Positions 9,658-20,114 of a stretch of DNA of 64,000 nt are shown piece after piece. The DNA comes from Pseudomonadota bacterium (GTDB lineage: Bacteria; Pseudomonadota; Alphaproteobacteria; Dongiales; Dongiaceae). The DNA lies in assembly GCA_021792365.1 (NCBI GenBank), contig JAJYUT010000001.1:186001-250000 (forward strand), given 5' to 3'. The translations under genes were made by a program, and so were the position numbers. The notes under the pieces were generated by a model that made no database searches, was not told the DNA's origin, and saw only the letters and a program-made list of their open reading frames with translations. Each line of letters starts with the position of its first letter. The stretch's first letter is position 1.

Positions 9658-10016
9658 TGGGCGACGTCCGTTATCGCGGCGGCAACAACGTCGCCATGAA
9701 GCTGCCGCCGCATCATTTCGACGGCGCGGTGAAGTTCTACCGCGACACGCTCGGACTCAAGGTCGAGGATCACGGCGAATCCAAGCTGGTGGAGTTCGGG
9801 CCGATCCGGCTGTGGCTGGACCCGTGCCCGCAATTCTCCCAGACCGAGCTGTGGCTGGAGGTGGTCGCGAGCGATAGCGACGCCGCCGCGACTCATCTGG
9901 GCGACCAAGAGGTCGTGCGCTGCGACCCGATCGAAAAGCTGCCGGAGGGGTTCCGCGGCTTCTGGATTGCCAGCCCGGCGAACATCGTGCACATCGTCTC
10001 GGAAAGCGGCATCTAG
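9657..10016 (+). CDS. VOC (glyoxalase/bleomycin-resistance-like) family protein
   Basis: 119 residues, a single VOC module pair. Visible features are FDGAVKFYRDTLGLKVED, SKLVEFGPIRLWLD, and the C-terminal FWIASPANIVHIVS. The metal-site positions are not clearly all present (His near the start and a late acidic residue are uncertain), so enzymatic activity cannot be assumed. Translationally coupled to the preceding SRPBCC gene, it is the last member of the arsR operon; a 125-bp gap follows before pdxY. Confidence 0.8.
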   Translation: MGDVRYRGGNNVAMKLPPHHFDGAVKFYRDTLGLKVEDHGESKLVEFGPIRLWLDPCPQFSQTELWLEVVASDSDAAATHLGDQEVVRCDPIEKLPEGFRGFWIASPANIVHIVSESGI

Positions 10017-10141
10017 CCAGCGCCAACAATGTCTGGCGACAAGATCGGCCCCAAACAGGGGCCGATTTCGCTTGCAAGCCGGGCTGCGATCAGGAGGATA
10101 CCGGGCGTCCTGCCATCCATAGCCCCGCGTCCGCCCGGTTC

Positions 10142-10954
10142 ATGAACATCCTCTCCATCCAGTCCCAAGTCGTCTACGGCCATGTCGGCAATTCCGCCGC
10201 GGCTTTCGTCTTGCAGCGCCAGGGCCACGCGGTGTGGCAGGTGCCGACGGTGCTGTTCTCCAACCACCTCGGCAAGCCGACCTTCCGCGGCCGCGCTGTC
10301 CCGGCGGAGCAGGCGCGCGACCTGATCGAGGGGCTGAAGGAACTGGGCTATCTCGACCACGTCGATATGCTGCTGACGGGCTATCTTGGGACGCCGGACA
10401 CCGCCCTTCTGGCGGCAGAACTGGCCGGCATCATCCGCGCCGAGAAGCCGCACGCCATCTTCGCCTGCGATCCGGTGATGGGCGACGACGACGCGCTCTA
10501 TGTGAAGCCCGACCTGGCCGACGCGATCACCAACGACCTCGTGCCGATCGCCGATGTGCTGCTGCCCAACATCTTCGAGCTGGCGCGCCTCACCGGCCGC
10601 ACGGTCAAGGACGGCAAGACGGCGCTCGAGGCTGCACAGGCCTTGCAGCAGAAATCCGGCGTGAAGGTGCTGGTGGCGACCGGTATCCCCGCCGACCGGC
10701 CAGACCGCATCGCGGCCCTGGCGCTGGACGGCGGCGCGATGCATCGCGCCGAGGCCCCGCGGCGCAACCTGCGCGTCTCAGGGACCGGCGACACCTTCAC
10801 CGCCCTGTTCACCGGCCAATACATGCGCGATCGGGACGCGGAAGGCGCGCTGCATTTCGCGATGCGCGCGATGGACGTGATCTGCGCCGCCACCGAAGCT
10901 GCCGATGCCGACGAGCTGCTGATTGTGCAGACGCAGGACGACTGGGCGAAGTAG
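10142..10954 (+). CDS. pdxY: Pyridoxal kinase PdxY
   Basis: 270 residues, ribokinase superfamily. It phosphorylates pyridoxal to pyridoxal 5'-phosphate in vitamin B6 salvage. Key features are the N-terminal ILSIQSQVVYGHVGNSAA, FACDPVMGDDD, LLPNIFELARLTG and the anion-hole/catalytic motif GTGDTFTALFTGQ near 221-233, with the Asp acting as base. Length and order match PdxY rather than PdxK or ThiD. It appears to be a single-gene unit. Confidence 0.93.
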   Translation: MNILSIQSQVVYGHVGNSAAAFVLQRQGHAVWQVPTVLFSNHLGKPTFRGRAVPAEQARDLIEGLKELGYLDHVDMLLTGYLGTPDTALLAAELAGIIRAEKPHAIFACDPVMGDDDALYVKPDLADAITNDLVPIADVLLPNIFELARLTGRTVKDGKTALEAAQALQQKSGVKVLVATGIPADRPDRIAALALDGGAMHRAEAPRRNLRVSGTGDTFTALFTGQYMRDRDAEGALHFAMRAMDVICAATEAADADELLIVQTQDDWAK

Positions 10955-10986
10955 GAATCGGCAGCCGGATCTTCGATCGCGCGGCT

Positions 10987-11859
10987 CTATGCGGCGCTGC
11001 CGACCAGAGCAGGAGAAGGATGTTCGCGAAAGGCCGTCGCCAGCATCCTCAGGGCGCCGCGGGACCTTGCATCCGAGAGCCTCGACAGCAGCACGATTTC
11101 CGATGAGGGAAGCGGCGGAAGCCCGAAACGCTGGCTGATCTCGACCGTGCCGGGCGGCGCAAGCCGATGAGAGAAGATTGCTGCGGCGAGCCCGGCCGAG
11201 ACGGCGTCAGAAACGCCGAAGGTGCCACACCCCAGGAACACCTCGGTCCACGCGATCCCCGCCGCGTCGAGCGCACGGGCCGCGACATCCCGGATGCCGC
11301 AGGCTGGAGACGATGACGCCAATCGCAGCGGTTCACCGGACCGGTGGACAAATCCCGGCGCTGCGAACCAGCCGAAACGTTCCAGCGCAAGCACTTCACC
11401 ATCGCGGCGGTCGTCCTCGCGACGGATGATGGCCGCATCGATTACCCCGCGGTCGAGCGCATCCAGCAGCGCGATCGAATTGTCGAGCCGCACCTCGAGG
11501 AGCAATGCGGGGTCATGCGCGTTCAGCCGGGCGAGTATGGTCGGAACCTCTACCCCTCCGACGTGGGTCGCGATGCCGAGCGCGAAGTGGCGGCGTCCCG
11601 GTTGCAGGCTTGCGACCGCGCGCTCGTGGGCAGCCAGAAAGTCGCGCGCGAATTCGATGAACACCGCGCCCTGGGCCGAAAGACGCACCAGCCGTGGCGT
11701 CCGTTCGATCAGCCGGTCGCCGATCCGCTCTTCCAGCCGTTTCAGCTTGACGCTGATCGCGCCTTGCGTGGTGCCGAGCGCCCTAGCCGCGCGCGTGAAG
11801 CTCCGATGATCGGCAATCGCCACGAAGGCCTGGACGGCCTCGACATCCAACATGGTCAT
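10987..11859 (-). CDS. LysR-family transcriptional regulator
   Basis: 290 residues. The N-terminal winged helix-turn-helix (about 5-65) is clear: VQAFVAIADHRSFTRAARAL, then GAISVKLKRLEERIGDRLIER. The remainder is the periplasmic-binding-like effector domain. It is divergently transcribed from the MFS transporter gene at 12029, with 169 bp between, the usual arrangement for a LysR regulator and its target. An export substrate may therefore act as inducer. Effector unknown. Confidence 0.92.
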   Translation of the reverse strand: MTMLDVEAVQAFVAIADHRSFTRAARALGTTQGAISVKLKRLEERIGDRLIERTPRLVRLSAQGAVFIEFARDFLAAHERAVASLQPGRRHFALGIATHVGGVEVPTILARLNAHDPALLLEVRLDNSIALLDALDRGVIDAAIIRREDDRRDGEVLALERFGWFAAPGFVHRSGEPLRLASSSPACGIRDVAARALDAAGIAWTEVFLGCGTFGVSDAVSAGLAAAIFSHRLAPPGTVEISQRFGLPPLPSSEIVLLSRLSDARSRGALRMLATAFREHPSPALVGSAA

Positions 11860-12028
11860 GCCAGCTATCCGATTTCGTTGTCTCTGAAATAGTCAATCAC
11901 CTGGTTCCAAGATCATCAAGCCACCCCCACCTCCACTCCGCAAAGCAATTCTCGGAGGGCGAGCGGCGGGCCCGCTCGCCATCTTCGGATTGCTGGCTTG
12001 CCGTTCCAAAAGCTCGAAAGGCTGAACC

Positions 12029-13537
12029 ATGCCGCCTGCCTTGACGCGCCAAAGTGCGATCGCCCTCTCCGCTGTGTGCCTATCCTGTCTGATGTTCGGA
12101 CTGGAGATTTCCAGTATCCCGGCAATCCTTCCGACGCTGGAGCGGGAACTCCACGCCGACTTCAAGCAGCTCCAGTGGATCATGAATGCCTATACCATCG
12201 CCGTAACGACAGTGCTGATGGCAACCGGAACGCTGGCCGACCGCTACGGGCGCAAACGCATCTTCATGATCTCCGTCCTTGCATTCGGCCTGACATCACT
12301 GATCTGCGGCGTGACGGAGAATGTCCTTACGCTCATTGTGGCCCGGTTTCTTCAGGGCCTGAGCGGCGGAGCAATGCTGATCTGTCAGGTTGCCGTGCTG
12401 TCGCACCAATTCCAGGGCGGGCGGGAACGCGCGCTCGCCTTTGCCTGGTGGGGCGTCATCTTCGGAATCGGCCTTGGCTTCGGCCCGATCATCGGCGGCG
12501 CGATTGTCGCGGTACTGGATTGGACGTGGGTGTTCCTCGTCCACGTGGCGTTCGCGGTCCTGGCATTCGTCCTCGCGCTGGGCGGCATCCAGGAATCGAG
12601 GGACCCGATGGCGGGCAGTCTCGACGTTGCCGGCATCCTGACGTTGTCGCTGTCGGTCTTCTGCCTGGCACTCTACATCACGCAGGGACCCGATCTTGGC
12701 TTCACCAGCACGACCGGGCTTGCGATCCTTGGTGTCTCGGTCGCGAGCCTGATTGCCTTTCTCGTCGCGGAGAAACTCAATCCGCGGCCGATGTTTGACT
12801 TCTCGGTCTTTCGTATCCCCGCGTTCTCGGGCGCCCTCATCGGATCGGCCGCCATGAACATCAGCTTCTGGCCCTTCATGATCTACCTGCCCATCTGGTT
12901 CCAAGCCGGGCTGGGTTATGACAGCGTGTCCGCCGGGCTCGCCTTGCTTGCCTATACCCTGCCGCCCCTGGTGATGCCGCCGATCGGCGAGCGGCTTTCG
13001 CTGCGTTACCGGCCTGGTCTCGTCATACCAGCCGGACTCTTCACGATCGGCCTAGGCTTCATGCTGATGAAGGCCGGCAGCGCCGTTGCGCAGCCGGACT
13101 GGTTGACGATGCTGCCCGGCTGCCTGATCGCCGGCCTCGGCCTCGGCCTGACCAACACGCCCGTCACAAACACGACCACGGGCTCGGTCTCGAGCGACCG
13201 CGCCGGGATGGCTTCGGGGATCGACATCAGCGCACGCATGATATCGCTCGCGGTCAATATAGCGGTGATGGGCTTTATCCTGGCGAGCGGCGCGGCGACT
13301 TATCTTGAAGGTGTCCTACTGGAGCAGGTGGACGCTTCCGAACTGTGGCTGCTCGCTGAGCGGATCGCTTCCGGCAATGCCGCGTCGGCACCTGGTTTGT
13401 CAGCGACCGCGATTCACGGAGCGCTGACGCAAGGTTTCGGCTGGGTGATGCTCTATGGCGGGGTCGGCGTTTGGGCGCTGGCCCGGCTCAGCTTCCTGCT
13501 CTTCAACGCGCGCGGGCTTCGACCGGCATTGGACTGA
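12029..13537 (+). CDS. MFS transporter, DHA2 (EmrB/QacA-like) drug exporter family
   Basis: 502 residues with about 14 hydrophobic helices, matching the 14-helix DHA2 class of proton-driven exporters. Motif A appears as GTLADRYGRKRIFM near 71-84. LERELHADFKQLQWIMNAYTIA is typical of the first helices, and the motif C region GLGFGPIIGGAIV is present. It is probably controlled by the divergent LysR gene. Substrate cannot be deduced; it may be a drug or a metabolite. The ATG at 12029 follows gaaaggctgaacc. Confidence 0.9.
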   Translation: MPPALTRQSAIALSAVCLSCLMFGLEISSIPAILPTLERELHADFKQLQWIMNAYTIAVTTVLMATGTLADRYGRKRIFMISVLAFGLTSLICGVTENVLTLIVARFLQGLSGGAMLICQVAVLSHQFQGGRERALAFAWWGVIFGIGLGFGPIIGGAIVAVLDWTWVFLVHVAFAVLAFVLALGGIQESRDPMAGSLDVAGILTLSLSVFCLALYITQGPDLGFTSTTGLAILGVSVASLIAFLVAEKLNPRPMFDFSVFRIPAFSGALIGSAAMNISFWPFMIYLPIWFQAGLGYDSVSAGLALLAYTLPPLVMPPIGERLSLRYRPGLVIPAGLFTIGLGFMLMKAGSAVAQPDWLTMLPGCLIAGLGLGLTNTPVTNTTTGSVSSDRAGMASGIDISARMISLAVNIAVMGFILASGAATYLEGVLLEQVDASELWLLAERIASGNAASAPGLSATAIHGALTQGFGWVMLYGGVGVWALARLSFLLFNARGLRPALD

Positions 13538-13553
13538 CGTTCCGCACGATCTT

Positions 13554-13589
13554 GGCCCACCTTCCAGTTACAAAGGGCGAAGGTGGGCC
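13554..13589. terminator. Hairpin between convergent MFS and asd genes
   Basis: A perfect 11-bp inverted repeat (ggcccaccttc / gaaggtgggcc) with a 14-nt loop lies between two convergent genes. It can fold on either transcript. No T-tract follows on either side, so it may slow polymerase, protect 3' ends or only be a weak terminator. Confidence 0.5.
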
Positions 13590-13606
13590 TATGAGCGCTC
13601 GAGATG

Positions 13607-14638
<1,032 letters not shown>

Positions 14639-14661
14639 GACTCGCTCCTTCGCCTAAAAGC

Positions 14662-14687
14662 AAAAGGGCCGCATCTTGCTGCGGCCC
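14662..14687 (-). terminator. Intrinsic terminator in the asd leader
   Basis: On the minus strand GGGCCGCA (14687-14680) pairs perfectly with TGCGGCCC (14673-14666) around a 6-nt loop and is followed by TTTTGCTTTT. It lies 24 bp before the asd start codon and after the leader peptide stop, exactly where an attenuator terminator would be placed. Confidence 0.82.
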
Positions 14688-14717
14688 CCTGGTTTCCTTC
14701 GATCCGTCGAGATCCCG

Positions 14718-14789
14718 TCAGGCCGCGCTCCACCACCCGGTCTTGGTGCCGGTGGTCTTGGTCTTGAGGGTGATCACGGCCTGGATCAC
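14718..14789 (-). CDS. Thr/Lys-rich leader peptide of asd (23 residues)
   Basis: A short frame starts at GTG 14789 and stops at TGA 14718-14720. It is preceded by AGGGA eight bases upstream, a fair ribosome binding site. The peptide reads MIQAVITLKTKTTGTKTGWW then SAA. Codons 7-17 include six Thr (all ACC) and three Lys (all AAG), the end-products of the pathway that asd feeds. It ends 79 bp before asd, ahead of the terminator. The two Trp codons form part of a pairing segment, so they may be there for RNA structure. The same frame stays open upstream, but the position, ribosome binding site and codon content favour the short peptide. Confidence 0.65.
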   Translation of the reverse strand: MIQAVITLKTKTTGTKTGWWSAA

Positions 14790-15019
14790 GTTGCAAATCC
14801 CTAAATGGAGCCTCCGGCTCCCGTCGGCGGCTCTTTTACAGGGGTTTGCCAATCCTGTCGACAGAAAACTGACGGGAAAGCCGGCGAAACGCCGGTCCTG
14901 CTGTTCTTTCATATTCTGGAATAGTTTCTCCATTTCATGCCTACTTCCGCCCGGCCATGAAATGATCATCTTAGCGGGTGAAGCGGGCGCAGCGCGCGCT
15001 GATGCACAGGGAGACATTC

Positions 15020-15631
15020 ATGAAGCTCTACTATCACCCGCTCTCCGGCCATGCCCACCGCGTCCATCTGTTCCTGTCGCTGGTCGGCGTCCCACATGAA
15101 CTGGTCACGCTCGATCTCATGGCCGGGGCGCACAAGACGCCGGAATTTCTGAAGCTGAACCGCTTCGGACAAGTGCCGGTGCTCGACGATGGCGGCACCA
15201 TCATCAGCGATTCAAACGCTATCCTGGTCTATCTCGCCAAAAAGCATGGCCGCGCCGATTGGCTGCCGGAAGATCCGGAGGCGGCCGCAGCCGTGCAGCG
15301 CTGGCTGTCGGTCGCGGCGGGGCAGATCGCTTTCGGCCCGGCCGCGGCGCGCCTCGTCACCTTGTTCGGGGCGAAATTCGATGCGGAGGAAGTCATCCGC
15401 CGCGCCCACGCCGTGCTGACGGTGATCGACGCGGAACTGGCGGAGCGCGACTGGATCGCCACCCAGCGCCCGACCATCGCCGATGTCGCGCTCTACAGCT
15501 ACATCGCCCGTGCGCCGGAGGGGAATGTCGATCTTTCCGCCTATGGCAATGTCCGCAATTGGCTTGCGCGGGTCGAGGCCCTGCCGGGATTCGTCCCGTT
15601 CCAGAAGACGCCCATCGGGCGCGCGGCCTGA
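15020..15631 (+). CDS. Glutathione S-transferase family protein
   Basis: 203 residues with an N-terminal thioredoxin-like domain (about 1-80) and a helical C-terminal domain. [18 protein letters not shown] carries the N-terminal catalytic region with Ser/His at the position used by bacterial GSTs, FGQVPVLDD holds the cis-proline, and [17 protein letters not shown] the glutathione-binding Ser. The start at ATG 15020 follows cagggagacattc; an upstream start at 14978 would add an unlikely N-terminal extension. Divergent from asd. Substrate unknown. Confidence 0.92.
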
Positions 15632-15640
15632 GTCCGGATC

Positions 15641-16606
15641 ATGGCAAGCGCACTGGACACTCTGCCCGCTTCGCCCTGGCACGATGGCGAGGTCGCGATG
15701 CAGCGCACAACGGGCGCCGCCGACAAGCTGGCGGCGCGCGGAAACCTGCTGCGCGATCACATGAGCGACCAGCATCGCCAGTTCTATGCGCAACTGCCTT
15801 TCCTTATCGCCGGTGCGGTGGACAGCGCGGGCGATCCCTGGGCCACCATCCTCTCCGGCGAACCGGGTTTCCTTCATGCGCCCGACCCGCACCGCCTGAG
15901 CATCGCCACGTCGCGCGATCCCGGCGATCCTGCTGATGAAGGCATGGAGGACGGCGACGCGATCGGCCTGCTCGGGATCGAGTTGCACACCCGGCGCCGC
16001 AATCGCTTGAACGGGCTGGTGGAGCGCCACGGCGCCGATTCGTTCCATGTCACCGTGCAGCAGAGCTTCGGCAATTGCCCGCAATACATCCAGGCGCGGG
16101 ATTTCCGCTTCGTGCGCGATCCCGCCCTGCGCGCAGGCCGGTTGCCGCACGCGCTGGAGCGATCGGACGCGCGCGTCCGCGCCATGATCGCCGCAGCCGA
16201 TACCTTCTTCGTCGCCTCCTACATCGACCGCCGGGATGGCACGCGCGAGGTTGACGTGTCGCATCGCGGCGGCAGGCCGGGCTTCGTGCGCGTGGGTGAT
16301 GATGGCGCGCTGACCATCCCGGATTTCTCCGGCAACCGCTTCTTCAATACGCTCGGCAACATCCTCACCAACCCGAAAGCGGGGCTGCTGTTCGTGGATT
16401 TCGAGACCGGCGACCTGCTGCAGCTTTCCGGCAGTGCGGACGTGATCCTCGATTCGCCCGAGATCGCCCGTTTTCAGGGCGCCGAGCGGCTGTGGCGTGT
16501 CACGCCGCGCCGCATCCACCTTCGGCCCGACGCGCTGCCGCTGCGCTGGACCTTCCGGCAGGACGGCTGGTCGCCGCAGGCGCTGAAGACCGGCGCCTGG
16601 ACATAG
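15641..16606 (+). CDS. PNPOx-like flavin-binding family protein
   Basis: 321 residues. The split beta-barrel fold of the pyridoxamine 5'-phosphate oxidase superfamily is suggested by QLPFLIAGAVDSAGDPWATILSG-like segments near 48-70 and by the second half DTFFVASYIDRR...VDVSHRGGRPGFV...LTIPDFSGNRFFNTLGNI (about 190-245), which resembles the flavin and phosphate-binding part of general-stress PNPOx proteins. FVDFETGDLLQLSGSA follows. It starts 9 bp after the GST gene and is likely in the same operon. No ferredoxin domain is seen. Exact reaction unknown. Confidence 0.8.
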   Translation: MASALDTLPASPWHDGEVAMQRTTGAADKLAARGNLLRDHMSDQHRQFYAQLPFLIAGAVDSAGDPWATILSGEPGFLHAPDPHRLSIATSRDPGDPADEGMEDGDAIGLLGIELHTRRRNRLNGLVERHGADSFHVTVQQSFGNCPQYIQARDFRFVRDPALRAGRLPHALERSDARVRAMIAAADTFFVASYIDRRDGTREVDVSHRGGRPGFVRVGDDGALTIPDFSGNRFFNTLGNILTNPKAGLLFVDFETGDLLQLSGSADVILDSPEIARFQGAERLWRVTPRRIHLRPDALPLRWTFRQDGWSPQALKTGAWT

Positions 16607-16608
16607 CG

Positions 16609-16956
16609 CTACATCGCGCGGCCGTCGAAATCGATCACCGGCAACGCAGCGAGGTCAACGCCCTCCAGGCAGCGGACGTTGACGTAGGCGCTGCGCTCCT
16701 CCTTGGACTCTGCCTCTTCCGCGAACGGATGCATGCCGCAGGCCTGGCAGAAGAGATGCGCGATGGTGTGCGTGTTGAACGTGTAGCTGCCGATGCCCTG
16801 CCCCGAGCCCCGCAGGCGCAGATTGCCACGGGGCACGGCCCACAGCAGCGCGCCCTTGCGCGCGCAGATCGAGCAATTGCAGGACACGACCTCTCTCAGC
16901 TCGCCCTCGACCTCGAACGCGATGTTGCCGCAATGGCAGCTGCCTTTGTAGAGCAT
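16609..16956 (-). CDS. GFA/CENP-V domain protein (glutathione-dependent formaldehyde-activating enzyme-like)
   Basis: 115 residues, one GFA domain. The zinc ligands are visible as GSCHCGNIAFEVEGE near the N-terminus, SCNCSICARKGALLW near 29-43, and HLFCQACGMHPF near 65-80. The family includes Gfa-like proteins and many of unknown activity, so a formaldehyde role is only a family label here. Convergent with the PNPOx-like gene, whose stop lies 2 bp away. Confidence 0.88.
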   Translation of the reverse strand: MLYKGSCHCGNIAFEVEGELREVVSCNCSICARKGALLWAVPRGNLRLRGSGQGIGSYTFNTHTIAHLFCQACGMHPFAEEAESKEERSAYVNVRCLEGVDLAALPVIDFDGRAM

Positions 16957-17034
16957 GTCCTCTCCCTATGACTTGGCCATATCGACGCCGGCTCTCAAAA
17001 GAGCCAATCGCCGCGTTGACGATGCCCGCCGCGA

Positions 17035-17913
17035 TCAATGCGTCATGAAGACCGGGATGGTGGCGGCGTCGATCATGTGGCTGGTAACGCCGCCGAGCAC
17101 CAGATGCTTCAGGCGGCTGTGGGTGTAGGCGCCCATCACCAGCAGGCCGGCCTCGGTCTCGCGCGCTGACACCAGCAGCTTCTCCGCGATGCTGCCGCCG
17201 CCTTCGGCGGTTTCGCCGACCGAGGCGGCGATGCCGTGCCATGCAAGGTAGTGCACAAGGTCGGCCGCCGATTGCACGCCGGCATGAGAATCCTGCACAT
17301 TGATCACGCGCACGCGCGGCCGCTTCTGGAGCAGCGGCAAGGCCGCGCTGATGGAGCGGATCGCCTCGATGCTGCCGTTCCAGGAGATGATGGCCGGGCC
17401 GGTCAGCATCGCATCCAGCCGCGCCTCGGTGCAGTCCGCAGGAATGAGCAGGACGGGCCGGCCGGCGGAGAACAAGGCATCCTCCACCGCGACCGCCACC
17501 AGGTCCAGCGCCTGCTCCGATTTCGGGCGCGCCATGATGATGAGGTCCGTCAGCCGGCCGAAGCGCGCAAGCAGCTCGGATTCCTGGCCCTTCTCCGCGC
17601 GGAACTCGGCCGTCGCGGCCGGGTGCGGCTCCGGCCGATCGCCGAGCGCGACCTTGCTCGCGTGGACCCAGGTGTCGAACGCGACCTTCGCCTGGGAGGA
17701 GCGCGCCTCGGCATGGCGCTCCGCCGCCGCCACCACCTCCGCGATGGCGACGCCGACATCGACCATCAGGGGGGTGGTCTTGAGCGGATCGGCGACGGCA
17801 TGCAGCGCCTGGATATGAGCCTGATGGGCGCGCGCCACGGCCAGGGCGGCGTCGAGCGCCGCGCGATCCGAATCCAGCCCGAACAGCGGAACCAGTATGT
17901 GCTTGAATGACAT
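17035..17913 (-). CDS. Universal stress protein with two UspA domains
   Basis: 292 residues, two UspA-like halves. The first begins SFKHILVPLFGLDSDRAALDAAL; the second runs from about 150 and ends with LVMGAYTHSRLKHLVLGGVTSHMI, a good match to the ATP-binding GxxGS-type loop region (here GAYTHSR...GGVTS). The ATG at 17913 follows GGAAGGGGGTCGGAC. A tandem Usp is common in alphaproteobacteria and is usually induced by stress. It stands alone between the GFA gene and leuB. Confidence 0.9.
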   Translation of the reverse strand: MSFKHILVPLFGLDSDRAALDAALAVARAHQAHIQALHAVADPLKTTPLMVDVGVAIAEVVAAAERHAEARSSQAKVAFDTWVHASKVALGDRPEPHPAATAEFRAEKGQESELLARFGRLTDLIIMARPKSEQALDLVAVAVEDALFSAGRPVLLIPADCTEARLDAMLTGPAIISWNGSIEAIRSISAALPLLQKRPRVRVINVQDSHAGVQSAADLVHYLAWHGIAASVGETAEGGGSIAEKLLVSARETEAGLLVMGAYTHSRLKHLVLGGVTSHMIDAATIPVFMTH

Positions 17914-18203
17914 GTCCGACCCCCTTCCTCGCTTTTGCTTATTGAAAGCGAGCATAGCGCAAATTCGTTCCCGGCGCTTGGGCCGGGTCGTAGGCGCATA
18001 GAGGTTAAAGGCCAGAGCCTCTTGGGCCGATCCACCGGAAGGTCCCGGATCGGCATCACCTTGAATCGGCGACGAGAATTGGCGTCTCGCAGAGAAGCAG
18101 CAGAGGCCCGACGTGACGGTGCGCTCATGCACACACGCACGCGCCGGCGCCTAACACCTGCCTGCGGGAGAACCGGCATGGCGATCCCGCGATCGGTACG
18201 CGA

Positions 18204-19316
18204 CTATTTCGCCAGCTTCTCGAGTTCCTTCAGGATCTCGTCGCCCATGCGGGTGGTCGAGACCTTGGTGCAGCCGGAGGCCATGATGTCGCCGGTGCGG
18301 AACCCGGCGGAGACCACGTTCTTGGCGGCCTGCTCGACCAGGTTGGCGGCATCCGCCAGGTCGAAGGAATAGCGGAACATCATCGCGAGGCTGAGCAGGC
18401 AGGCCAGCGGGTTGGCAAGGTCCCTGCCGGCGATGTCCGGCGCGGTGCCGTGGACCGGCTCGTACAGCGCCTTGCGCCGGCCGTTCTTGTCGGGCGCGCC
18501 GAGCGAGGCCGAGGGCAGCATGCCGAGGGAACCGGTCAGCATCGCGGCGCAATCGCTCAGCAGATCGCCGAACAAATTGTCGGTGACGATCACGTCGAAC
18601 TGCTTGGGCTGGCGCACGAGCTGCATGGCGCAGTTGTCCGCATACATGTGAGAGAGCTCGACGTCGGAATATTCCGCCTTGTGCAGCTTGGTCACTTCCT
18701 CGCGCCAGAGCACGCCGCTTTCCATGACGTTGGCCTTCTCCACCGAGCAGACCTTGCGATTGCGCTTGCGCGCCAGCTCGAAGGCGACGCGCGCCACGCG
18801 CACGATCTCGCTGGTGGTGTAGACCTGGGTGTTGATGCCGCGCCGCTCGCCATTCGGCAGGGTCTCGATGCCGCGCGGAGAGCCGAAATAGACGCCGCCG
18901 GTCAGCTCGCGCAAAATCATGATGTCGAGTCCGGCGACCAGCTCGGTCTTGAGGCTCGATGCTTCGGCCAGCGCGTCGAACACGATCGCCGGGCGCAGAT
19001 TGGCGAACAGCTCCATGTCCTTGCGCAGGCGCAGGAGGCCACGCTCCGGCTTGATCTCGAACGGCAGGTTGTCCCATTTCGGCCCACCCACCGCGCCCAA
19101 GAGCACCGCGTCGGCCTGCATCGCCTTCGCCATCGTCGCATCGGTCAGGGGCACGCCATGCGTGTCGATGGCGCAGCCGCCGACCAGGTCCTCGTCGACG
19201 TCGAAGGAGAGCGCCTGGTTCTTCGCGAACCAGTCGATGACGCGCTTCACCTGCGTCATGACTTCGGGACCGATGCCGTCGCCGGCGAGGATCAGCAGTT
19301 TCTTGTTGGTGGGCAT
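18204..19316 (-). CDS. leuB: 3-isopropylmalate dehydrogenase
   Basis: 370 residues. It oxidises 3-isopropylmalate to the 2-oxo acid in leucine synthesis. Family features: [14 protein letters not shown] at the start, the substrate Arg-rich stretch [15 protein letters not shown], the catalytic Tyr in [10 protein letters not shown], the Lys in [11 protein letters not shown] and the metal-binding Asp cluster [12 protein letters not shown], then [17 protein letters not shown] for NAD. The start MPTNKK at 19316 removes a 15-residue upstream extension that has no ribosome binding site. leuD lies upstream across a palindromic repeat. Confidence 0.97.
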
Positions 19317-19368
19317 TTCCGAGACTCCAGACTTCACGACCAGGCTGCGCCGCAGCCACAAACGATTT

Positions 19369-19471
19369 CGTCATGCCAGGGCTTGGCCCTGGCATCCACG
19401 AGCTTCAATGGGACGGATCGGATGAGCGGCCGTCAGGTTCGCGGCCGGCAAGGCCAAGCCTTGCCATGACG
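19369..19471. repeat. Palindromic repeat element (REP/MITE-like), copy 1
   Basis: The ends cgtcatgccagggcttggcc (19369-19388) and ggccaagccttgccatgacg (19452-19471) are inverted copies with two mismatches. The left end also holds an internal palindrome, atgccaggg/ccctggcat. It lies between leuD and leuB. A related element is at 22207. Such elements are scattered in many alphaproteobacterial genomes. Confidence 0.75.
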
Positions 19472-19505
19472 AACACGCGTGCGTGCCGATCGAGGCCGTT
19501 CATCA

Positions 19506-20114
19506 TCACCACAGCCAGGGCTGGCCGACGCGGGCCTTTGCTTCGTAGCTGTCGATGTTGGCGGCCTTCTGCATGGTGAGGCCGATGTCGTCGAGGCCGT
19601 TCAGCAGGCAGTGCTTGCGGAAGGCGTCGATCTCGAAGGTGATGCAGCCGCCGTCGGGGCCGCGAATCTCTTGGCTTTCCAGGTCGATGGAGACGACGGC
19701 GTTGGCGCCGCGGTTGGCGTCGTCCATCAGCTTGTCGACCTCCGCCTGCGGCAGGACGATCGGCAGGATGCCGTTCTTGAAGCAGTTGTTGTAGAAAATG
19801 TCCGCGAAGCTCGGCGCGATCACGCAGCGTATGCCGAAGTCGAGCAGCGCCCAGGGTGCATGCTCGCGGCTTGAGCCGCAGCCGAAATTAGGGCCCGCGA
19901 CCAGGATCTTGGCCTGGCGGTATTGCGGCTTGTTGAGGACGAAGTCCGGGATTTCCTTGCCGTCCGGCGTGTAGCGCATCTCGTCGAACAGGTTCTTGCC
20001 GAGCCCGGTGCGCTTGATCGTCTTCAGGAATTGCTTGGGGATGATCATGTCGGTGTCGACATTCATCATCGGCAGGGGCGCCGCGACGCCGGTGAGCTGA
20101 TCGAATTTCTGCAT
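19506..20114 (-). CDS. leuD: 3-isopropylmalate dehydratase small subunit
   Basis: 202 residues, aconitase swivel domain. With LeuC it isomerises 2- to 3-isopropylmalate. [16 protein letters not shown] and [20 protein letters not shown] are the family signatures. The start MQKFDQL at 20114 fits family members; a start five residues upstream is possible. In this genome leuC lies 2.2 kb further along with other genes between, so the two subunits are not adjacent. Confidence 0.96.

Follow-up and report, generated by a model that had tools for sequence, protein, structure and literature searches.

The asd gene in the stretch of DNA analyzed here (the window, 64,000 nucleotides long) is preceded on the same strand by a short reading frame crowded with threonine and lysine codons, by an intrinsic terminator, and by an alternative pairing that takes up the 5' arm of that terminator. 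We consider it highly likely that these elements constitute a ribosome-mediated transcription attenuator for asd that senses charged tRNA-Thr and tRNA-Lys, and, judging from the sequence, a shortage of threonine or lysine very probably raises asd expression in this bacterium. The enzyme encoded by asd makes the branch-point intermediate for lysine, threonine, methionine, and isoleucine. The original prediction proposed attenuation from this one locus, and the recurrence of leader codons, terminator, and antiterminator before asd in relatives now supports it.

The asd leader region of the window

All coordinates are positions in the window in forward-strand numbering (Table 1). The leader had been placed between asd and a divergent GST gene, and this context holds: the asd assignment is based on NCBIfam PRK14874 (E 6.7e-156), with which Pfam agrees, the asd start codon is the ATG at 14638, and the divergent gene is GST-like. 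The gene beyond asd, at 12029-13537 on the plus strand, encodes a DHA2/EmrB-like MFS efflux transporter and converges on asd, so that asd appears to stand alone. Four other genes of the Thr/Lys pathways in the same genome, hom, lysC, dapA, and thrC, were compared by eye, and no Thr/Lys leader was seen in the ~220 nt upstream of each.

Table 1. Features of the asd leader region in the window
Feature	Position	Strand	Basis
asd, aspartate-semialdehyde dehydrogenase, 343 residues	13607..14638	(-)	ORF list and domain matches
asd ribosome-binding site AAGGAG	14645..14650	(-)	read from sequence
Intrinsic terminator, 11-bp stem 14690-14663 plus T-rich tail	14656..14690	(-)	sequence, terminator search, fold
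Segment 3, GGGCCGC; antiterminator 3' arm and terminator 5' arm	14681..14687	(-)	pairing, terminator search
Leader ORF, GTG start, 23 residues, MIQAVITLKTKTTGTKTGWWSAA	14718..14789	(-)	sequence; similar leader in L002, L003
Segment 2, GCGGCCT at leader stop codon; antiterminator 5' arm	14720..14726	(-)	pairing and position tests
Inner leader hairpin, ACCACCGG / CCGGGTGGT	14732..14756	(-)	fold; arms 14756-14749 and 14740-14732
Sensing codons 7-17, 6 Thr (ACC) and 3 Lys (AAG)	14739..14771	(-)	sequence; Thr/Lys enrichment in relatives
Segment 1, CAGGCC; protector helix with GGCCTG (14724-14719)	14778..14783	(-)	minimum-energy fold
Candidate sigma-70-like promoter, TCGACA-17 nt-TAAAAG	14833..14861	(-)	read from sequence

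The predicted GTG-started frame of 23 residues, in which nine of codons 7 to 17 specify Thr or Lys, was confirmed when the codons were read from 14789 to 14718 (GTG ATC CAG GCC GTG ATC ACC CTC AAG ACC AAG ACC ACC GGC ACC AAG ACC GGG TGG TGG AGC GCG GCC TGA). Its Shine-Dalgarno sequence, AGGG at -13 to -10 of the GTG, is a weak match. The start of the leader is uncertain, because the frame in the window is open for 99 codons and earlier start codons are present. The frame of the sister locus L002 closes 5 codons upstream of this GTG; that of the sister locus L003 stays open further, and no start was found ahead of this GTG within 300 nt of asd. Both sister leaders are like that of the window, with one extra in-frame Lys codon. 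The candidate promoter has identical spacing in L002 and L003, and we grade it as weak because it is absent from the output of a consensus promoter scan. An inverted repeat, ACAGG...CCTGT, spans this candidate promoter (14861-14833, minus strand), and its counterpart in L002 is ACAGAGG...CCTCTGT, so the repeat is kept despite changed letters. From its sequence the repeat may be an operator, in which case asd may also be under repressor control.

The terminator was found where it had been predicted, 24 nt upstream of the asd ATG, and its tail is TTTTGCTTTT. The minimum-energy fold of the leader RNA, which holds the protector helix, the inner hairpin, and the terminator, is stabler than the folds of shuffled sequences (z = -2.44; 4 of 200 shuffles were equally good). 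The original prediction also included two competing hairpins. Both of these pairings exist, but they are not mutually exclusive; it is instead the protector helix, CAGGCC:GGCCTG, that excludes the antiterminator, GCGGCCT:GGGCCGC, which shares letters both with that helix and with the terminator.

We modeled the effect of a translating ribosome approximately, on the assumption that its leading edge lies 12 nt beyond the first base of the A-site codon. With the A site at any of the Thr codons (6 of 6), the antiterminator formed by segments 2 and 3 is in the minimum-energy fold at a point when the terminator 3' arm has not yet been made, and the free RNA stretch has a modeled energy of -23.7 to -35.0 kcal/mol. 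With the A site at the stop codon, the antiterminator cannot form, and the modeled energy of the free stretch is -3.9 kcal/mol. A partition-function model gives a modest change for the antiterminator of the window, 0.40 for a ribosome at the stop codon versus 0.64 for a stalled one. In the same model, the antiterminator is higher at the stall than at the stop in 22 of 23 loci and equal in 1, and 20 of the 23 lie above the shuffle mean while 3 do not; only 8 of the 23 are clear-cut (stall >0.5 and stop <0.25). Compared with shuffles, the antiterminator duplex is weak on its own (P = 0.045 in the window; P ≤ 0.05 in 12 of 20 loci that have a terminator). Modeled energies alone do not prove an attenuation switch.

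Recurrence of leader, terminator, and antiterminator in Alphaproteobacteria

We compared 211 asd upstream regions (206 distinct), of which 30 are from a first sample, 80 are from named genomes, and 21 and 80 are from a class-wide sample, the last 80 stretches having been picked with the aim of one per genus. An asd match was obtained in 58 of 61 genomes of the first sample (G001 has a weak partial match only) and in 262 of 289 genomes of the class-wide sample at E 1e-50, and 80 asd loci were kept from the scan of named genomes. The regions lean towards asd genes resembling that of the window, and offsets are approximate in 7 of the 211 because the assumed asd start there is not a start codon. 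The thresholds used below (8 of 12, 7 of 12, 9-bp stems, and the range -10 to +4) were fixed after the first loci had been viewed; Thr/Lys frame counts were tabulated for all thresholds from 4 or 5 up.

Under a strict short-frame rule, 23 of the 206 regions have at least 8 Thr or Lys in 12 residues; none of the 206 reverse complements does so, and neither does any of 4,120 dinucleotide shuffles. A looser frame rule finds 25 regions at ≥8 and 30 at ≥7, with 0 and 1, respectively, among the reverse complements. These counts are not independent, since many of the sequences come from close relatives (11 of the 30 are from the family of the window, and L038 and L041 are near-identical). In an unbiased scan for all twenty amino acids, 29 regions reached 5 or more Thr in 12 residues versus 0.5 expected, and no other amino acid showed a comparable excess in the 206 regions; Lys alone reaches 5 in 12 in 0 regions, with 0.5 expected. 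However, when 27 regions were selected on Thr alone, Lys made up 59 of the 156 other residues (38%, with a background of 4.4%), which indicates that the Lys codons belong to the leader. Lys is the commonest non-Thr residue in these regions and is present in 25 of the 27. Given the relatives, a chance origin of the leader is very unlikely.

At the ≥7 rule, leaders are present in eight coded families (f1, f2, f43, f67, f98, f112, f137, and f142) and in records named Magnetospirillum (L053), Kiloniella (L047), Mesorhizobium (L072), Chelativorans (L094), and Chelatococcus (L076). A full asd match was obtained in 16 genomes of the family of the window; 11 of these carry the leader, and those at L013, L018, L021, L022, and L023 are without it. 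Another record, Rhodospirillaceae bacterium R-7 (L049), matches L015 of this family in both leader and terminator. The same rule finds no leader in 176 of the 206 regions. The Kiloniella-like leaders at L047 and L143 have a Thr-rich stretch that also contains Trp and Ile (TTTWTTITT) and lies well ahead of the stop. Their last residues form a Met/Lys stretch, MKVKM, and perhaps they sense methionine as well.

In 19 of the 30 leader-bearing regions, the stretch from the leader stop to asd contains a T-tailed stem of 9 bp or more, versus 0.59 expected from shuffles. Among leaderless regions, defined as having at most 4 Thr or Lys in 12 and searched over their last 110 nt, such terminators were found in 4 of 158; the 18 regions scoring 5 to 6 were placed in neither leader group. 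The position of segment 2 was tested in the 23 loci with a stem of at least 7 bp and a T-rich tail. A segment with at least 6 bp to the terminator 5' arm starts at -10 to +4 of the leader stop, a range chosen post hoc, in 18 of the 23 versus 2.63 expected (the most in 500 null sums was 8), and outside the family of the window in 8 of 12 versus 1.65 expected. The five loci that fail this position rule are L007, L047, L072, L143, and L147. As far as the sequences go, such a nearly constant location at the stop codon is what a switch read by a ribosome would require of segment 2.

The letters of the arms differ by lineage while both helices persist. The antiterminator arms are GCGGCC/GGCCGC in the family of the window, CGCGGGCC/GGCCCGCG in L038 and L041, GGAAGAACCTCG/TGGGGTTCTTCT in L120, and CGAACCTC/GGGGTTCG in L147, and in the latter two the pairing partly enters the terminator loop. 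In L014, the best antiterminator pairing is in the terminator loop, and a 7-bp pairing with the arm also exists. An alignment (A2) of 18 of the 30 leader-bearing loci was hand-picked and served for viewing only. The original prediction had named the lack of a leader or terminator in relatives as evidence against it. What we found is that leader codons, terminator, and antiterminator recur, with the same layout in different letters before asd, and that many relatives are without the element.

Loci L207 and L097, which are from other families, have leaders, and the terminator search found none between the leader stop and asd. In their folds, the segment right after the leader stop pairs with a purine-rich stretch upstream of the asd start. 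For the lineage of the window, occlusion of the asd ribosome-binding site was considered as the output and rejected (duplex versus shuffles, P = 0.14 in L001).

From the Rhizobiaceae, which we take to be the family of Mesorhizobium albiziae, 101 genomes were searched, 99 of which have asd at E 1e-100, and the 30 best-scoring loci were examined (L213 to L242; L213 and L072 come from one genome). Of these best 30 loci, 22 have a Thr/Lys leader, most often with KTV at its end, and a terminator of at least 9 bp is present in only 7 of these leader-bearing loci, the other 15 being without one. In most of the 22, the last 110 nt before asd instead allow a helix of CCCUCUCC with GGAGAGGG, which directly adjoins the asd ribosome-binding site on its upstream side. 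In an alignment of 21 of the 22 sequences (L233 was left out because of its differing spacing), 92.8% of the cells of this helix are paired versus at most 73.9% when it is slid. Double-sided changes occur in 3 of its 8 pairs (4 cells), and 3 pairs were reached in 4 of 500 shuffles; the covariation score is 0.127, and one slid version scores higher, at 0.146. RNAalifold, applied to this alignment, gives a consensus fold in which the ribosome-binding site is preferentially paired with other segments. When the Rhizobiaceae duplex with the ribosome-binding site was compared with shuffles, it was not significant (P ≤ 0.05 in 1 of 22), which we think is because the DNA is pyrimidine-rich upstream and purine-rich at the site. 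The helix beside the ribosome-binding site is a possible translational version of the attenuator. We suggest tentatively, and with slightly less than even confidence, that the Thr/Lys asd leader occurs widely in Alphaproteobacteria, where it may be old, and that its output has been rewired with its codons kept, acting through a terminator in Rhodospirillales-like lineages, including this genome, and through a helix at the ribosome-binding site in Rhizobiaceae. Such leaders would form a natural series in which the sensing codons stay and the RNA output may switch from transcription to translation.

Proposed mechanism and alternative explanations

From these elements we infer where transcription starts, that the leader is translated, that transcripts terminate in the cell, and that asd responds to threonine and lysine; these steps would fit together as follows. 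When both amino acids are plentiful, the leading ribosome would reach the leader stop and cover segment 2 (GCGGCCT), leaving segment 3 available to pair with segment 4 as the terminator, and transcription would end ahead of asd. Under threonine or lysine shortage, the ribosome would stall among codons 7 to 17 and leave segment 2 free to pair with segment 3, so that the terminator would be blocked and asd transcribed. If the leader is not translated, CAGGCC:GGCCTG would hold segment 2, and the terminator would form. With Thr and Lys codons in one leader, either shortage would open the gate, which would make the leader a compact OR-type sensor.

One alternative explanation is that the terminator and a low-complexity frame coincide by chance and that asd is expressed constantly by read-through. 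GC-rich DNA does readily give hairpins, and loose criteria assign a terminator to 7.3 of 30 shuffled regions compared with 20 of 30 observed. However, the enrichment over shuffles, reverse complements, and leaderless loci largely refutes this explanation, and we regard it as very improbable. The leader might also encode a small functional protein, with the terminator merely a fixed setter of the asd level; a small protein of Sinorhizobium, SEP5, is translated, and its tagged form is reported only in the soluble fraction (PMC10117765, in the passage cited). Against this, what relatives share is Thr/Lys richness near the stop; length and the N-terminal part vary, and of the 607 nonsynonymous differences counted pairwise over the last 8 codons of the 22 Rhizobiaceae leaders, 161 exchange Thr and Lys. 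That 18 of the 23 loci place segment 2 at the leader stop also speaks against this explanation, to which we give only a slim chance of being correct.

Control of asd by a metabolite-binding riboswitch, for example, one for lysine, instead of by a ribosome would suit a gene on the lysine pathway with a terminator in front of it. However, no Rfam family matches at its gathering score in 20 leader-bearing loci, and alignment A2 has conserved codons and short complementary arms but no conserved structured domain, so that a riboswitch of this kind is scarcely credible. The lysine riboswitch itself was rejected, as its Rfam model has no match in window positions 10000-20000 or in the 20 leader-bearing loci. 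The Rfam covariance model of the threonine operon leader, presumably the family Thr_leader, likewise has no match in this part of the window or in these 20 loci. The one Rfam match in positions 10000-20000 is a sub-threshold CPEB3 ribozyme match, which we take to be noise. Attenuation by a ribosome that reads the Thr and Lys codons is the reading that we retain.

Comparison with known systems

The source cited here as PMC10117765 is presumably Hadjeras et al. 2023. It describes the small ORF SEP5 of Sinorhizobium meliloti, located in the 5'-UTR of a gene called "aspartate dehydrogenase"; translation of SEP5 was shown by Ribo-seq and Western blotting, and a leader peptide was suggested as a possibility in 2023 (PMC10117765, passage cited). 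We think that this gene is asd. Like the leader of the window, SEP5 has six Thr and three Lys codons near its 3' end; the difference is that the cited passage gives no terminator or antiterminator for it and that its authors call it conserved only in Sinorhizobium (PMC10117765). The attenuator proposed here would offer an explanation for this orphan small ORF.

The original prediction held that such a leader on asd may be undescribed. This stands for the terminator switch, in that we found no description of such a switch before asd, or of its breadth, among the matches listed from the open-licence literature. It probably does not stand for the leader as such, since a Thr/Lys leader had already been suggested for SEP5 (PMC10117765, passage cited). 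Apart from SEP5, the matches listed from the open-licence literature contain no asd attenuator, and most subscription papers lie outside that search. The main text of PMC2965389 does not contain asd, threonine, or lysine, PMC12218461 has none of the terms sought, and "asd" in the passages of PMC4117421 and PMC8844928 means anti-Shine-Dalgarno. The type of switch is classic, and its place before asd is hardly described.

Threonine attenuators of gammaproteobacteria are reportedly treated by Vitreschak et al. 2004. Ribosome-mediated attenuation is also found in Alphaproteobacteria, at trpL/rnTrpL of Sinorhizobium (PMC10117765) and the ilv leader of Caulobacter (PMC4117421), where, according to the passages cited, the amino acids and operons are others. 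The thrL of Streptomyces lividans is likewise a proposed attenuator with a Thr-codon leader peptide, but as described in the cited passage it has two Thr codons, precedes the tRNA synthetase gene thrS, belongs to an actinomycete, and has no clear terminator (PMC8079986). With thrL of Escherichia coli and Vibrio natriegens, the leader of the window shares a leader peptide of cognate codons, an intrinsic terminator, and the sensing of two amino acids; thrL carries Thr and Ile codons before thrABC, whereas here Thr and Lys codons precede asd alone (PMC12925634, passage cited). The asd leader would carry threonine attenuation, which is known in the thr operons of gammaproteobacteria, over to another gene and another class.
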